Source: a bacterium (GTDB lineage: Bacteria; RBG-13-66-14). Taken from it: a DNA stretch of 9,782 bases. Below, piece after piece: positions 3,464 to 9,782 of the stretch. Each line of letters starts with the position of its first letter. Within the stretch, counting starts at the first letter, position 1. The stretch covers positions 1 through 9,782 of the forward strand of contig DATKYS010000029.1 in the NCBI GenBank assembly GCA_035528375.1. Direction: 5' to 3'. Made by a program: the position numbers and the translations under genes. Under the pieces are notes generated by a model. The model had not been told where the DNA came from and made no database searches. It worked only from the letters and a program-made list of their open reading frames with translations.

Positions 3464-5041
3464 TCATCTCTCGGGCCGCCGGAGGGTCTTGGGGTGCAGC
3501 ACGGCGCAGGGGACTATCATCTCGGGCATGGAGATGCCGCCGTGCTGGAAGGCGCCCGCGTAGAAGCGGCGCTGCTCGTTCTTCGAGTACGAGTAGACGA
3601 AGTTGTAGTCCTCCAGCGCCACGAGGTAGTTCTTGCCGATGTGCTCCGCGGGGAGCATCCACTCCGCGGGGTGGTTGATCAGGAGCGCCCCCTCGCCCTC
3701 GAAGCGCAGGTTCTGGCCGAACCACAGCCGCAGGCCCTTGGAGGTCTTCTTGTCGCAGTAGGCGATGACCGCCCGCTCGGTCTGGATGCTGCCGTGGTCC
3801 GAGGTGATGACGACGGTGACGTCCCGGCCGGTGAGCTCCTTCAGCCCGGCCAACAGGCTCGAGTGGGCGAACCAGGCCGCCGCCACCGCCCGGAACCCCT
3901 GCGGCGTGTCGCTCATCTCCGAGAGCACCTGGAGGTTGGACCGCTCGTGGGTCAGAAGGTCCACGAAGTTGACCACCAGGGAGTAGAGGGTGGTCTCGCG
4001 CCAGCCGCGGAAGAGTTCGAGGACGCTGGGCTCCGTGCTGCCGCCGCGGATTTTTTTGTAGCGCGGTCGGGCCGGGAGCTTCACCCCATGCCGCTCCAGG
4101 CACGCGTTCAGGAGCTGGCCCTCGTGCTGGTTCAGCCCCGCGTCCTCCTCGGAGCGCTCGGACCAGAACTCCGGCAGCTTCTCGGATATCTCCTTCGGGT
4201 ACAGGCCGGCGAAAATCGTGTTCCGGGCGTAGTTCGTGCTCGTGGGGATGATCGAGAGGTACGGGAAGTCGTCTATGAGCCAGTGGGGCTCCAGGAACCG
4301 GCGGAACAGGAGCCAGAGGTCGTAGCGCATGGCGTCTATGACGATGAAGTAGACCGGCCGCTTCTGTTTCAGGAAGGGGGTCACCACCCGGGGGAGGATG
4401 TCCACCGAGAGCATGGGGCGGTCCGCCCCGCCGGCCACCCAGCCGCGGTAGTTCTCGATGACGTAGCGGGCGAAGAGGGCGTTGTCCTCGCGCAGGACCT
4501 GGTCGTGAAGCTTGTGGAGACCGGGGTCCCGGGCCGTCTCGAGATTCAAGTCCCAGTTGACCAGGGAGACGTAGCGCTCGAGCCAGCCTTTCCAGTCGGT
4601 GATTTCGTGCCGGGTCTGGTCGAACTGGCGGAGCTCGGCCATGTAGCGCTGGACCAGGGTGGAGGTCTCGAGGGCCTCGCGGTCCAGGATGCGCTTGAGG
4701 ACGCCGGCGAGCTGGGTCGGGGTGACCGGCTTGACCACGAAGTCGTCGGCGGCCAGGCCGTAGGCCTCGTCCATCAGCGAGTCCTCATGGCCCTTGGTGA
4801 CCATGACCACGGGGAGGTTGGGCCTCACCCGCTTGAGCTCGGCCAGGGTCTCGGTGCCCGAGAGGCCCATCATGTGCTCGTCCAACAGCACGGCGTCGAA
4901 GCGTTCCTCGAGCACCTTCGCCAGGGCGTCGTCGCCGTTGGTGACCCCGACCACCTCGTAGTCGCGGCGTTCGAGGAAGACCACCTGGGAGCGCAGGAGC
5001 TCTATCTCGTCGTCAACCCAGAGGATGCGGCGTTTCTCCAC
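3464..5041 (-). CDS. porX: PorX-like response regulator with PglZ/alkaline-phosphatase-fold output domain
   Basis: Two-domain signalling protein of 525 residues, close to the usual PorX length. The receiver domain (about 1-120) has ILWVDDE with the acidic pair D10/D11, phospho-acceptor D54 (LLDEHM), T82 and K104 (VVKP). After a helical linker, the PglZ domain (about 225-515) shows a set of alkaline-phosphatase-like metal and catalytic candidates: D236 in IVIDAMRYD, T268 in PTSTNYARN, D361 and H365 in NFVDLLTH, D415/H416 in ITSDHG, and H500 in QHGGISMPEM. In Bacteroidota PorX regulates type IX secretion with the kinase PorY and has phosphodiesterase activity on oligonucleotides. Here the active-site set looks intact. 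The start is GTG with AAGGAG only three bases upstream. A PorY-like kinase lies directly upstream. No type IX secretion gene is visible, so the target pathway is open. Confidence 0.9.
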   Translation of the reverse strand: MEKRRILWVDDEIELLRSQVVFLERRDYEVVGVTNGDDALAKVLEERFDAVLLDEHMMGLSGTETLAELKRVRPNLPVVMVTKGHEDSLMDEAYGLAADDFVVKPVTPTQLAGVLKRILDREALETSTLVQRYMAELRQFDQTRHEITDWKGWLERYVSLVNWDLNLETARDPGLHKLHDQVLREDNALFARYVIENYRGWVAGGADRPMLSVDILPRVVTPFLKQKRPVYFIVIDAMRYDLWLLFRRFLEPHWLIDDFPYLSIIPTSTNYARNTIFAGLYPKEISEKLPEFWSERSEEDAGLNQHEGQLLNACLERHGVKLPARPRYKKIRGGSTEPSVLELFRGWRETTLYSLVVNFVDLLTHERSNLQVLSEMSDTPQGFRAVAAAWFAHSSLLAGLKELTGRDVTVVITSDHGSIQTERAVIAYCDKKTSKGLRLWFGQNLRFEGEGALLINHPAEWMLPAEHIGKNYLVALEDYNFVYSYSKNEQRRFYAGAFQHGGISMPEMIVPCAVLHPKTLRRPER

Positions 5042-5151: not shown

Positions 5152-6381
5152 CTAGACCGGCAGGGTGATCGTGAAGCGTGTCCCCTCGCCGGGGGAGCTC
5201 TTGAGGCGGATGCGGCCGTGGTGGTACTCGACGATTATCCGGCGCACCAGGGTCAGCCCCAGGCCCCAGCCACGGGCCTTGGTCGAGTGCCCGGCGTCGA
5301 AGACGCGGCGGCGCATCCACCAGTTCATCCCCGCCCCGGTGTCGGACACCTCCAGCTCGACTCCCCTCGGCACCCGCCGGAGGCGGACCGTTATCAGGCC
5401 CCGGCCGGGTTTCCTCCGCCCCTTCTTTCCCCCGTCGCCGGGGTTCGCCAGGACCTCCGCGGCGTTGCGCACCAGGTTCTCTATCACCCAGCCGAAGAGG
5501 ACGGCGGACAGGGGCACGAGCCCCACGTCCTCCGACTCGTCCACCAGCTTGACGTTGGCCAGGGAGATGCGCTTGCGGCAGTATTCCACCGCCTCGCGGA
5601 CCACTGCGCGGAGGTCCGTTTTCTCCAGCTCGGGCGTACGGCCCACCTCGGCGAAGCGGTGGACTATCTGCTCCAGCCGCTTCACGTCCCGGGTCATCTC
5701 CGGCTGGACCTTCCCGACCGCGGCGGGGTCCTCCCTCAGAAGCTCCAGCCAACCCAGAAGGCTCGAGACGGGGGTGCCGAGCTGGTGGGCCGTCTCCTTG
5801 GCCAGCCCCACCCAGATGGCCTGCTGCTCCGACAGGCGGAAGCGGTGGTTGGCGAAGAGCCCCAGCCCGCCGAAAATTAAAATGAACGCGATGCCCACCA
5901 CGGGCAGCCAGGAGAGGGTGGTGATTATCTCCGGCGAGGAGTAGTGCAGCGTGGCGACCAGGCGCTCCTCCACCGTTCCGGTGGGCTTTTGCACCCGGCG
6001 CTCGACCAGGGGGATGGGGTCGTTGTCCTCGTCCATCTCCGCGGCCAGGCGCAGGATTTCCAGACGAGAGGCCGCGTCCACCGGATGCAGGTCGCCGGGC
6101 AGGTTGCGGCACTCCATCTGCTTCCCGTCCGCCGAGACGACGATGGCGGGGAATTTCAGCATGCGCCGCAGGGAGTCGGTTATATCCTTCAACAGGTCCA
6201 GCGACACGTCCCCCCGCGTGACGGCGGTGATGATGGTCGAGGAGACGTCGGCGTAGGCGATGGATATGGAGCGGTACTCGTTCTCCAGCCGGTTGATGAG
6301 GGCGTTGGAGTAGGTGAAAAGACCCACCCCCACGAGGAGGAAGAGGATCAGAAAGTAGAGGGTGATGCGCCGCAGAATCAT
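5152..6381 (-). CDS. PorY-like membrane sensor histidine kinase
   Basis: Inner-membrane sensor kinase of 409 residues, likely partner of the PorX-like regulator downstream. One membrane helix lies near 6-24, an extracytoplasmic sensor of about 130 residues follows, and a second helix lies near 157-177. There is no HAMP domain: the phosphorylated His (H199) is about 20 residues after the helix. The H-box WVGLAKETAHQLGTPVSSL is very like the MAKETAHQLGTP form found in PorY-type kinases of Bacteroidota. The catalytic domain has the N-box IENLVRNAAEVL (about 300-310), DTGAGM (347-352), an F-box region VFDAGHSTK and GWGLGL (371-376). The ATG start is 14 bp after the preceding gene, with only a weak ribosome site, so translation may be coupled. 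The signal it senses is unknown. Confidence 0.9.
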   Translation of the reverse strand: MILRRITLYFLILFLLVGVGLFTYSNALINRLENEYRSISIAYADVSSTIITAVTRGDVSLDLLKDITDSLRRMLKFPAIVVSADGKQMECRNLPGDLHPVDAASRLEILRLAAEMDEDNDPIPLVERRVQKPTGTVEERLVATLHYSSPEIITTLSWLPVVGIAFILIFGGLGLFANHRFRLSEQQAIWVGLAKETAHQLGTPVSSLLGWLELLREDPAAVGKVQPEMTRDVKRLEQIVHRFAEVGRTPELEKTDLRAVVREAVEYCRKRISLANVKLVDESEDVGLVPLSAVLFGWVIENLVRNAAEVLANPGDGGKKGRRKPGRGLITVRLRRVPRGVELEVSDTGAGMNWWMRRRVFDAGHSTKARGWGLGLTLVRRIIVEYHHGRIRLKSSPGEGTRFTITLPV

Positions 6382-6395
6382 GGACCGCCGTTGGT

Positions 6396-6845
6396 TCAGG
6401 GCGTCGCGTATGCGCGCAGGAGGGCGTGCTCACGCTCCGCCGTCGCCGCCAGGGAGCCGAGCACCTCCAGGTACGCCTCGGGGGACGTGTCGGAGGTGCG
6501 CAGGTCCGCCGCCAGGTGCAGCCGGGTCCCGGTGGGGTCCAGGGCGAACTTGACGAGCGGCAGGTCGAAATTTCTTTCCAGCGCCCAGCGCTGCATCCCG
6601 GCCGGGATGCCCTCCCCCTCCACCCGGATGGGCAGAGAGAGGAAGAGGTGCTCCGGCGTGCGGTACACCGTGATCCGCCAGTCGCTCTCGGCGCCGGCGA
6701 AGTCCACGTACCAGCGGTCGGGGTTTTCGGGATCGAGTGAGTAAATGAGGCCCGCCCCCGCCGTGGCCGCGGTGTACTCGACGCTCTCGGCGGCCGGTGA
6801 AACGACCGCCGTCAGTAGCGCGAGAATAATCGTCGCCCGTTTCAC
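6396..6845 (-). CDS. Small exported protein, YbjN-like fold suspected
   Basis: A 149-residue protein with a short signal peptide (MKR, then a hydrophobic stretch to about residue 18, likely cut near SPAAES). The mature part is acidic and ends in a segment (about 75-145) with the pattern LSLPIRVEG, MQRWALERNFDLPLVKFALD, GTRLHLAADL and a final helix. That resembles YbjN / type III chaperone-like sensory proteins; this is a weak similarity judged by eye. The start is GTG and overlaps the stop of the lipoprotein gene by 4 bp (GTGA), so translation is probably coupled. The kinase follows 14 bp later. The position suggests an envelope accessory or ligand-binding partner for the kinase, which is inference. 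Confidence 0.7.
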   Translation of the reverse strand: MKRATIILALLTAVVSPAAESVEYTAATAGAGLIYSLDPENPDRWYVDFAGAESDWRITVYRTPEHLFLSLPIRVEGEGIPAGMQRWALERNFDLPLVKFALDPTGTRLHLAADLRTSDTSPEAYLEVLGSLAATAEREHALLRAYATP

Positions 6846-7717
6846 GGCCAGAGGGCCAGCCCGGTTAGCTCCCCCTCGACGTCGAGGATGAGCACCGGGG
6901 GCGGCGCGCCCACGGGGGTTTCCGCCCGCCGGTACACGCCCGGGCGGCCGCCGATCTCGCCGTAAAAATAAATCGTCTGGTTGTCCGCGTCCACCACGGG
7001 GTGGCGCTCGTTCCCGGCGTCGTCGGTCAGCCGGACCGGCTCCCCCGACTCCAGGTCCACGACGTAGAGGTCGTAGTCCCCGCCGCGGTCGCTGGCGAAT
7101 ACCAGGGCGCGCGAGTCGGCGGAGAAGGCCGGGTCCACGTCGTCGTAGGGGCCCTCCACCAGGCGGCGGAAGCGGTTCGAGCGCAGGTTCAAAAAGTGGA
7201 TATCACCCGCGTAGACCAGGGCCGCGAGCCCGCCCGTCCGGTCGAGGACCAGCCCGTCCGGCTCACTCTCGAGGTCCGGGGAGAGGGTGTTGAGCGTGGT
7301 CGGGTCGCCCGGTGAGTCCAGGTGCCGCAGGGCCGGTCCGGTGTCGTCGGAGGCCACGAAGACCACCGACTCGTCCAGGATGCCGCGTGTCGGGAAGCGG
7401 TCCGGGGTGAAGTTTTTGGTGAGCTGCTCCGTGTCGCCGCCCTCGGCGGGGACGCGGTAGATTTCCCAGTCCCCGTCCGCGTCGCAGGCGTAGAGGACCC
7501 AGCGGCCGTCGGCGGAGAAGGCCGGGGCGCCCTTGAGGCCCCGGGTGAAGGTGAGCTGGCGCTCCTCGCCGGATTCGAGGTCGTAGAGGTAGACCTCGTC
7601 GGCGCCGCCCTTGGCGGCGGTGTAGGCCAGCAGGGGCGTTCCCCCCCGGGAGGCGCATCCGGCCGTGAGGACGAGGGTCGCCAGAATAAAGGCTGCCGCG
7701 GTTTTTCGCATCTTCAT
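6842..7717 (-). CDS. PD40/TolB-type beta-propeller lipoprotein
   Basis: Lipoprotein of 291 residues. The signal peptide ends in the lipobox LTAGC with lipidated C21. The rest is a run of about six diverged WD40-like PD40 blades, seen as repeats of YDLESGEERQLTF, PAFSADGRWVLYACDADGDWEIY, VDPAFSADSRALVFASDRGGDYDLYVVDLESGE and NERHPVVDADNQTIYF. Such propellers usually bind partners at the envelope (TolB and the PorE-type propellers of type IX secretion are examples). The ATG start has GGAG six bases upstream. It is the first gene of the apparent unit leading to the PorY/PorX-like pair, so an envelope-side sensing or scaffold role is a fair guess. The blades are much more diverged than those of the propeller at 8726-9727. 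Confidence 0.85.
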   Translation of the reverse strand: MKMRKTAAAFILATLVLTAGCASRGGTPLLAYTAAKGGADEVYLYDLESGEERQLTFTRGLKGAPAFSADGRWVLYACDADGDWEIYRVPAEGGDTEQLTKNFTPDRFPTRGILDESVVFVASDDTGPALRHLDSPGDPTTLNTLSPDLESEPDGLVLDRTGGLAALVYAGDIHFLNLRSNRFRRLVEGPYDDVDPAFSADSRALVFASDRGGDYDLYVVDLESGEPVRLTDDAGNERHPVVDADNQTIYFYGEIGGRPGVYRRAETPVGAPPPVLILDVEGELTGLALWP

Positions 7718-7832: not shown

Positions 7833-8384
7833 TTACCTCAGCGTAGAGGTTTCCGTTTGGAGGATTTCGTAGGTTTCGGTGTCTACAAAGGTGCTAAAAA
7901 CGTAGCCATCTTCGTCCCAGCACTCAACGCTAAAGATTAAGGCTTCCGGAAAATCCGCGTGTGGAAAATGGGCATATAAAGAGAAGCAATAGGTGCCCTC
8001 TTCGTAGTTGTCATCAAGATACTGCAGGACTGGCGCCATCAAGCGCCGAATGCGCTCGTTATCATAAATAATCTCTGGACCTGGCTTATAAAAGTGGTCC
8101 ACCGGCTTAACGTTTTCGTTGTAATACACATCCCAGCATTTACTTTCGTTTCCGTCAGCGTCGGTAAATACGAGAGTCCAATAGCATCCCATCATTAAAA
8201 GGCCGTCCCTATCCACGATTCCATTAAAATGAGACAAATGCGCGCCGGGATTCCAGATGTAATCTTTGACAACGTTCGTTGCCCAATCAAAGGAACCCTT
8301 CGTTGGAGTTCCGCCATCCGCGCTTGCGCTCGTAACGCACGCCAGTATGAGGACGGCCGGGACGCCGAGCAGTATCCGTTTCAT
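7833..8384 (-). CDS. Secreted protein of unknown function, sharing its leader with the propeller gene
   Basis: 183 residues. The signal peptide (1-22, predicted cut ASA|DGG) is residue-for-residue the same as that of the 8726-9727 protein, and the DNA upstream is the same too. The mature part is unrelated to the propeller. It is rich in aromatic and acidic residues, with four Cys (C67, C83, C133, C155), three of them in Cys-aromatic contexts (GCYW, KCWD, ECWD), which could form two disulfides. The last segment, FVDTETYEILQ, is faintly like the end of a PepSY domain, but I do not call it. I do not recognise the family. GC is lower than in most neighbours, which hints at separate origin for the mature part. 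C16 in LILAC is a poor lipobox, so a soluble secreted form is favoured. ATG start, AGGAGG nine bases upstream. Confidence 0.7.
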   Translation of the reverse strand: MKRILLGVPAVLILACVTSASADGGTPTKGSFDWATNVVKDYIWNPGAHLSHFNGIVDRDGLLMMGCYWTLVFTDADGNESKCWDVYYNENVKPVDHFYKPGPEIIYDNERIRRLMAPVLQYLDDNYEEGTYCFSLYAHFPHADFPEALIFSVECWDEDGYVFSTFVDTETYEILQTETSTLR

Positions 8385-8439
8385 CTAGCCCTACCTCCTC
8401 ATTTCGATTTTATGGGCCGTTTTTCTAATCAAGCGCCTA
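8309..8439 (-). repeat. Leader/signal-peptide cassette, copy 1 (131-bp direct repeat)
   Basis: This block matches 9652-9782 at an offset of 1343 bp, with only two mismatches (8316 and 8325, both synonymous). It covers the upstream region, the ribosome site, the start codon and the codons for the signal peptide plus Asp-Gly-Gly. Similarity stops just inside the mature protein. On the upstream side copy 1 runs into unique sequence at 8440. Copy 2 is cut by the window end, so the true length may be greater. Confidence 0.9.
8394..8432 (-). promoter_or_regulatory. Ribosome site and possible promoter of the 183-residue secreted protein
   Basis: AGGAGG (complement of 8394-8399) lies nine bases before the ATG and is a strong ribosome site. 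Upstream, TAAAAT (complement of 8407-8412) and TTGATT (complement of 8427-8432) could be -10 and -35 boxes, but their 14-bp spacing is too short for a good sigma70 promoter and the -10 sits very close to the ribosome site. The ribosome site is solid; the promoter is tentative. Confidence 0.4.
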
Positions 8440-8462
8440 AACTATTTTAAGGTGTTATTCCC

Positions 8463-8505
8463 CCCGCGGGCCTACCTGAACGGCGCGCCGTCGGTCGGCC
8501 CCTAC
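8463..8505. repeat. Palindromic intergenic repeat (copy 3)
   Basis: Matches 24-66 with one change (G34 to T8473). It has arms GGGCCTACC and GGTCGGCCC around ACGGCGCGCCGT (8480-8491), ending CCCCTAC. It lies in the gene-free stretch 8440-8725, whose remaining content is the other repeats listed here. Unlike copy 2, no T-run follows on the minus strand. Confidence 0.75.
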
Positions 8506-8510
8506 ACTCC

Positions 8511-8596
8511 GGTCCGCCCCGCCGGGGCGGGGAATGGTCGCATTCGGGAACAAATTAGTCGGGCGTCTACGGTCCGCACCCGCCGGGGCGGGGAAT
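8511..8596. repeat. Two copies of a GC-rich short repeat (family A)
   Basis: GGTCCGC, then CCCGCCGGGGCGGGGAAT, occurs at 8511-8535 and again at 8571-8596, differing by an inserted base. CCGCCCC and GGGGCGG in the first copy can form a 7-bp stem with a 3-nt loop. The 35 bp between the copies (8536-8570) show no other structure that I see. Confidence 0.6.
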
Positions 8597-8631
8597 CGAG
8601 TTTTGAGCTCACCCGATGTTTCCGGCCCCCA

Positions 8632-8725
8632 CCCTTCGGCCTCCACCCACGGGGAGAGAGGGGCGTAGCCGGCAACTGAATTTCGAACGGCTCCCTTCGG
8701 CCTCCGCCCACGGGGAGAGAGGGGC
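8632..8725. repeat. Two copies of a 33-bp repeat (family B) at the propeller stop codon
   Basis: CCCTTCGGCCTCC...CACGGGGAGAGAGGGGC occurs at 8632-8664 and 8693-8725 with a single mismatch (A8645, G8706), 61 bp apart. The second copy ends exactly at the base next to the stop codon of the propeller gene (8726-8728). The ACGGGGAGAGAGGGG part recalls the GGGAGAGGGG hairpin repeat at 121-157. Confidence 0.65.
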
Positions 8726-9727
8726 CTACTCCGCCGGACTCCAGGCGGGAAAACCGTCATCGCTTTCGTCGTCGGTCAACCGGGTCACCTTGCCCCCGTC
8801 GGCGTCCATCACGAAAATTTCCAAGTCCCCGTCGCGCTCGGACTCGAAGGCGATGCGGCGGCCGTCCGGACTCCAGACGGGATTCCTGTCATCTTTTATG
8901 TTGTCGGTCAACCGGGTCAGGTTGCCCCCGTCGGCGTCCATCACGAAAATTTCGTGGCTGTCGGAGTCGCCGCCGGAGCGGAAGGCGATGCGGAGGCCGT
9001 CCGGACTCCAGGCGGGATTCCCGTCAGTGCTATTGTTGTTCGTCAACTGGGTTTGATTGCCCCCGTCGGCGTCCATCACGAAGATTTCAGCGTCCCCGTC
9101 GCGCGCGGACTCGAAGGCGATGCGGCGACCGTCCGGACTCCAGGCGGCAAAGTGTTCCCGGTCATCGTTGAAGGTCAACTGGGTTTGATTGCCCCCGTCG
9201 GCGTCCATCACGAAGATTTCAGCGTCCCCGTCGCGGTGGGATTCGAAAGCGATGCGGCTGCCGTCCGGACTCCAGGCGGGATACATGTCCCAGTCATCGT
9301 TGAAGGTCAACCGGGTCACCTCGCCCCCGTCGGCGTCCATCACGAAGATTTCCCAGTTTCCGTCGGGGAAGGAGGTAAAGGCGATGCGGCCGCCGTCCGG
9401 ACTCCAGGCGGGGAACTCATCATCGCTTACGTTGTCGGTCAACCGGGTCAGGTTGCCCCCGTCGGCGTCCATCACGAAGATTTCGTAGTCCCCGTCGCGG
9501 CTGGAAGCGAAGGCGATGCGGCGGCCGTCGGGACTCCAGACGGGATTCCTGTCATCTTTTATGTCGTCGGTCAACCGGGTCTGGTTGCCCCCGTCGGCGT
9601 CCATCACGTAGATTTCCCCGTGCCCGTAGCCGCCGTGGACGAAGGTTATTTTTCCGCCGTCCGCGCTCGCGCTCGTAACGCACGCCAGTATGAGGACGGC
9701 CGGGACGCCGAGCAGTATCCGTTTCAT
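8726..9727 (-). CDS. Secreted seven-blade PD40/TolB-type beta-propeller protein
   Basis: 333 residues: a signal peptide (1-22, cut ASA|DGG) and then seven blades of 44-45 residues. Each blade follows IAFxSxRDGDxEIFVMDADGG, NxTRLT, xxDDxxPAWSPDG. The blades are so alike that the gene is a tandem repeat at DNA level. The protein ends WSPAE where other blades continue WSPDGRR, and the phase from the first strand (KITF) gives seven complete units, a normal closed propeller. Asp-rich DADGG and RDGD turns could bind Ca2+, which is inference. There are no Cys in the mature part. The ligand is unknown; PD40 propellers mostly bind proteins or glycans in the envelope. ATG start, AGGAGG nine bases upstream, in a leader shared with the 7833-8384 gene. 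Confidence 0.88.
   Translation of the reverse strand: MKRILLGVPAVLILACVTSASADGGKITFVHGGYGHGEIYVMDADGGNQTRLTDDIKDDRNPVWSPDGRRIAFASSRDGDYEIFVMDADGGNLTRLTDNVSDDEFPAWSPDGGRIAFTSFPDGNWEIFVMDADGGEVTRLTFNDDWDMYPAWSPDGSRIAFESHRDGDAEIFVMDADGGNQTQLTFNDDREHFAAWSPDGRRIAFESARDGDAEIFVMDADGGNQTQLTNNNSTDGNPAWSPDGLRIAFRSGGDSDSHEIFVMDADGGNLTRLTDNIKDDRNPVWSPDGRRIAFESERDGDLEIFVMDADGGKVTRLTDDESDDGFPAWSPAE
8729..9652 (-). repeat. 132-bp in-frame tandem repeat array coding the propeller blades
   Basis: The run CCCCCGTCGGCGTCCATCAC begins at 8793, 8925, 9060, 9192, 9324, 9456 and 9588: six intervals, five of 132 bp and one of 135 bp. Blades 4 and 5 are near-identical neighbours. Blades 1-2 match blades 6-7 as a block at an offset of 663 bp, with about three mismatches over 95 bp around 8847-8944 and 9510-9607. 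This points to recent amplification and segment-wise duplication or conversion. Confidence 0.9.
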
Positions 9728-9782
9728 CTAGCCCTACCTCCTCATTTCGATTTTATGGGCCGTTTTTCTAATCAAGCGCCTA
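9652..9782 (-). repeat. Leader/signal-peptide cassette, copy 2 (131-bp direct repeat)
   Basis: Second copy of 8309-8439, in the same orientation, with two synonymous differences. It supplies the leader, ribosome site and signal peptide of the propeller gene. The match runs to the last base of the window, so the repeat may extend further. Confidence 0.9.
9737..9775 (-). promoter_or_regulatory. Ribosome site and possible promoter of the propeller gene
   Basis: Identical to the site upstream of the 183-residue protein: AGGAGG (complement of 9737-9742) nine bases before the ATG, with TAAAAT (9750-9755) and TTGATT (9770-9775) as weak -10/-35 candidates 14 bp apart. The two genes are therefore expected to share translation strength and any control acting on this leader. 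Confidence 0.4.

Follow-up and report, generated by a model that had tools for sequence, protein, structure and literature searches.

Capture of a promoter and signal peptide, by local duplication or by exchange of 5' ends, is known among bacterial genes for lipoproteins and secreted proteins, as are families of variable lipoproteins that share a 5' region, such as vmp of Borrelia and vlhA and vsa of Mycoplasma. Here we analysed a stretch of 9,782 nucleotides (the window), which is an entire contig (C29 of the genome G000, from an uncultured member of the Coatesbacteria) and in which an orphan gene and a neighbouring PD40 propeller gene begin with almost the same DNA. We consider it likely that this leader belonged ancestrally to the orphan gene, as its front end, and that the propeller gene is a newcomer with a copy of it, obtained through a single recent local duplication.

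The repeated leader and the end of the contig

Along the window, the features that concern us are the following:

6842 to 7717, reverse strand: PD40 lipoprotein gene downstream of the orphan gene; a syntenic anchor, conserved in the sister genomes G003 and G001
7833 to 8384, reverse strand: orphan gene, 183 aa; probable lipoprotein (Cys16) with a predicted tandem PepSY/YpmB-like fold
8309 to 8439, reverse strand: leader copy 1, of the orphan gene, with about 55 bp of upstream DNA, AGGAGG, the ATG at 8384 and codons 1-25; probably the ancestral copy, with an orthologous copy in G003 (C132:1047-1133) at 87%
8401 to 8424, reverse strand: conserved upstream box, AAAAACGGCCCATAAAATCGAAAT; kept at 24 of 24 positions in G001, before the PD40 lipoprotein gene, the orphan being absent there
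8440 to 8725, no strand: spacer from the propeller gene to leader copy 1; largely dispersed genomic repeats, with one 42-48 bp element in about 30 or more copies
8726 to 9727, reverse strand: propeller gene, 333 aa; the leader runs straight into the first of its seven PD40/TolB-like repeats; belongs to an expanded paralogue family
9652 to 9782, reverse strand: leader copy 2, of the propeller gene; found by repeat search, truncated by the contig end

An earlier note on this DNA had described a near-identical 131-bp segment, running from upstream DNA to the signal peptide and bearing two synonymous changes, and this was confirmed by a repeat search and a base-by-base comparison. The copies at 8309-8439 and 9652-9782 form a direct repeat with a spacing of 1343 and are identical at 129 of 131 positions (about 98.5%), a match for which chance is ruled out. 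The repeat holds about 55 bp upstream of the ATG, including the AGGAGG ribosome site, and codons 1-25 (MKRILLGVPAVLILACVTSASADGG). The mismatches lie at 8316/9659 and 8325/9668, at most 17 bases from the cargo junction, and both are synonymous (one GCA/GCG, Ala, the other GAT/GAC, Asp). The description of one leader before unlike mature parts was equally borne out, the first cargo having no Pfam match and the second being a PD40 propeller.

Because the contig stops within copy 2, the upstream limit of the repeat lies beyond view, and the true repeat may be longer than 131 nt. The final 114 bases of the contig recur exactly at 8326-8439, but the final 115 do not. A de Bruijn assembler working at k=115 would produce such a break if a true repeat extended at least one base further, although this is only suggestive. 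IDBA-UD settings of mink 65 and maxk 115 have been used in published work (PMC8204110, PMC9258230), and among 48 contig ends of this genome there were no informative overlaps that reveal k. An assembly error could also have joined the leader of the orphan to the propeller gene at the contig end. This would agree with a contig that stops inside a repeat, with last bases that exactly copy an internal stretch, and with the fact that no other contig continues this end. We nevertheless regard such an assembly artefact as unlikely: the two base differences mean that copy 2 is no plain paste, at least close to the junction; the reading frame runs through the junction (...SADGG followed by KITF) and gives a sensible protein, in which the first propeller repeat follows the signal peptide; and a de Bruijn assembly at k=115 would stop at exactly this point in a true repeat.

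A GC-rich element of 42-48 bp (GGGCCGACC...GGTCGGCCC type) was observed at 28-66, 171-209 and 8458-8505. The genome contains some 30 or more copies of it, with identities of 93-98%, also near contig ends, and this dispersed intergenic element probably breaks assembly.

The two genes behind the leader

No Pfam or NCBIfam model matched the orphan, and a search by peptide pattern found no relatives of it in genome contigs or viral contigs. Its lipobox reads LILAC in G000 and LFLAC in the orthologue of G003, with Cys16 invariant behind a short hydrophobic stretch (alignment judged by eye). The ASA motif is missing in that orthologue, in which orphan codons 17-25 (VTSASADGG) are unconserved. Since Cys16 is invariant and ASA is not, processing as a lipoprotein at Cys16 appears more likely than cleavage by signal peptidase I after ASA. 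The proposal of shared upstream DNA and a shared signal peptide, cleaved after ASA, is thus retained in its first part and doubtful in its second.

An AlphaFold2 model of the orphan, built from two sequences (mean pLDDT 78.7, low for residues 1-25), consists of a helix and strands followed by a second helix and strands. Its best match in the PDB was 4exr, the putative C. difficile lipoprotein CD1622, which aligned over 131 residues with Z 10.3, an rmsd of 3.9 and 12% identity. Further matches were YpeB (5boi; Z 7.2) and YpmB (2gu3; Z 6.2, rmsd 9.8), amid unrelated copper amine oxidase rows, and Foldseek returned YpmB at E 0.063 and nothing below E 0.001. We take 4exr, YpeB and YpmB to be PepSY-type proteins, and the model suggests a tandem PepSY-like lipoprotein as the probable identity of the orphan. 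It would resemble the PepSY/YpmB/YpeB-type lipoproteins in the alignment of its predicted fold with 4exr, but differs from them in having no sequence-family match and in its low (12%) identity. Weak sequence relatives of the orphan, mostly with lipoprotein-like signals, were seen in the phylum (L042, L043, L045, L046 and L047), and the orphan may be one member of a wide family of lipoproteins that diverge fast.

The propeller gene encodes seven repeats of about 44 residues each, as read off the translation, and matches PF07676 with 226.8 bits in six stretches, above the gathering score. As TolB itself (TIGR02800) it was rejected, its 307.1 bits being below the equivalog cut-off of 343.15. It is thus like the TolB-like PD40 (WD40-like) propellers in scoring on both models, but unlike them in falling below the TolB cut-off, in having no TolB N-terminal domain reported, and in the joining of the leader straight to the first repeat. 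A dozen or so paralogues are present in the genome, with up to 72% amino acid identity. At E <= 1e-40 the family has 14 matches there, some of which are separate pieces of one gene; in three less complete sister genomes it has 4, 2 and 1. Among the propeller relatives in the genome whose front end was checked, none carries this leader.

Highly similar PD40 propeller repeats are expanded in G000 beyond the sister genomes (contigs C32, C58, C67, C69, C105, C117, C126, C131 and C140), and the heads of these genes vary, with lipoprotein signals, CsgG-like domains and a zinc ribbon. Within the propeller of the window, the repeats at 8734-8972 and 9397-9635, near the two ends of the protein, share 87% DNA identity over 239 bp, above other repeat pairs, and this likeness suggests internal gene conversion or duplication. 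Elsewhere in the window (3464-5041 and 5152-6381), a response regulator fused to a PglZ domain adjoins a histidine-kinase-like gene, encoded on the strand that also carries the orphan and PD40 lipoprotein genes; we take this response regulator-PglZ architecture to be the one known from PorX.

The orthologous site in sister genomes

Two genomes of the same genus retain the site. In G003 (Candidatus Coatesbacteria CSMAG_1439), a GGDEF gene lies directly upstream of the leader and an orthologue of the orphan (54-55% amino acid identity), followed by the orthologue of the PD40 lipoprotein gene; the propeller is absent. In G001 the order is the GGDEF gene, a perfect 24-nt remnant of the upstream box and the PD40 lipoprotein gene, with neither orphan nor propeller, and the remnant favours loss of the orphan over its never having been present. 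The spacer of the window (8440 to 8725) was not found at either site. The upstream DNA of G003 resembles that of G001, whereas the spacer upstream of copy 1 in G000 differs. The GGDEF gene of G000 itself is on a separate contig, C14, where its neighbour is an unrelated ORF of 315 aa or more, and there has therefore been more than one change in the region upstream of copy 2. This open ORF (L072, C14:1-945) has no match in Pfam or NCBIfam; it flanks the GGDEF gene where, in the sister genomes, the orphan (G003) or the PD40 lipoprotein gene (G001) is found.

The leader is taken to be ancestral to the orphan because in G003 it heads the orphan orthologue and because the propeller is absent at both sister sites, and the duplication is taken to be recent because the copies are 98.5% identical, as against 87% to the sister species. 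As a single local duplication predicts, the only copies in the genome are adjacent, and the sister genomes hold a single-copy site. The earlier note had proposed that the divergence of leader and cargo be compared: beside the 98.5% between leader copies, identity between G000 and G003 is 90% over the 40 bp before the ATG, 83% over signal codons 1-16 and 65% for the mature part of the orphan.

Ancestrally, the orphan with its leader (upstream box, ribosome site and lipoprotein signal peptide) would have stood between the GGDEF gene and the PD40 lipoprotein gene. A PD40 propeller gene and a second leader would then have been added just upstream in the lineage of the window, giving the order leader-propeller-spacer-leader-orphan. 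This could have come about by tandem duplication followed by replacement of one body, by insertion with duplication of the leader, or by gene conversion. As the duplication is recent, both products would be translated from the same initiation region; they would probably be transcribed alike and exported as probable lipoproteins, and we infer their co-regulation and lipid attachment.

Gene conversion might also have acted between two older genes, the propeller having had a related leader of its own that was recently overwritten. Both differences lie at the edge nearest the cargo, the place at which a conversion tract would stop, and the lack of conservation of orphan codons 17-25 in G003 would allow part of the leader to stem from the propeller side. 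However, the propeller is absent at the orthologous site in G003 and G001, and an earlier duplication would be needed anyway, so that we find this history improbable. The more modest suggestion of the earlier note, that duplication of the leader or gene conversion placed it before two unrelated cargoes, finds support in the two copies, the orthologous placement of the leader in G003 and the lack of a propeller at the sister sites.

Distribution of the leader and comparison with known systems

A search of the whole genome (2.63 Mb, completeness listed as 100) found exactly two copies of the leader, before the orphan and the propeller, and no third. Among 60 other genomes, the sole substantial match was the single copy before the orphan orthologue of G003 (87% over 87 bp), and no copy with a different cargo was found. 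G001 had two short matches, the box remnant at the orthologous site and a match of 79% over 53 bp that covers only signal-peptide codons, those of a small, unrelated lipoprotein of 106 aa, and weak matches of 28-30 nt occurred in two genomes outside the phylum. The exact leader pattern was absent from viral contigs, and in the species genome set and genome contigs only the G003 record matched. There was no match in Rfam and no sigma-70 promoter match in the leader, upstream box included; the box is a probable regulatory element. A literature search on leader sharing found nothing directly relevant.

A second leader, MRTL, is common to four genes of G000 (C32a, C32b, C117 and C67), which are 76-91% identical pairwise over their DNA matches, and precedes both propeller-only genes and genes with a CsgG-like domain and a propeller. 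Since all four cargoes carry propeller repeats, this family would be explained by old paralogy in which the CsgG-like domain was gained or lost. One leader before differing architectures is thus not unique to the window, yet gives no evidence for a cassette machine. A second dispersed repeat (CCCTCTCCC...GGGAGAGG type; L052:1070-1110 and many contigs, about 40 matches in the genome) was observed just upstream of the MRTL-leader genes. One might speculate that the genus repeatedly spreads PD40 propeller modules behind existing export leaders (MKRIL here, MRTL elsewhere), helped by dispersed repeats, an idea that we hold to be rather unlikely.

The earlier note had looked to three or more copies with different cargo, which would make the leader a reusable cassette and the marker of a co-regulated family of secreted or surface proteins; apart from short matches, there are two copies in the genome and, in G003, one orthologous copy whose cargo is the same. 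Two copies that fit a single local duplication are the pattern that the note itself had named as refuting this reading. A reusable expression-and-export cassette placed before many cargo genes could draw on the one leader before two unrelated cargoes and on the two architectures behind MRTL, but is highly improbable given the missing third copy, the 60 genomes without a different cargo, the viral contigs and species genome set with no match beyond G003, the absence of a recombinase or flanking signature at the boundary within the window (the upstream side of copy 2 lying beyond the contig end), and the propeller repeats of all MRTL cargoes, for which domain loss or gain suffices. Neither the cassette nor the hidden regulon is supported; because the leader signal is local, with two copies only, DNA matching with this leader would uncover no such regulon in this genome.

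The likely single local duplication would instead make this locus a case of a newly arrived gene that gained its expression and export signals by copying the front end of its neighbour, the site as it is without this gene being seen in sister species. As in promoter and signal-peptide capture among bacterial lipoprotein and secreted-protein genes, one front end precedes two different mature proteins; unlike in that process, the window has only two copies and the recombination route is not visible. With Borrelia vmp and Mycoplasma vlhA/vsa the locus shares common leader DNA before different mature parts. It differs from them in that no silent archive, multi-copy array, repeat tract or inversion signals were seen, and in that each of the two genes has a complete leader of its own.
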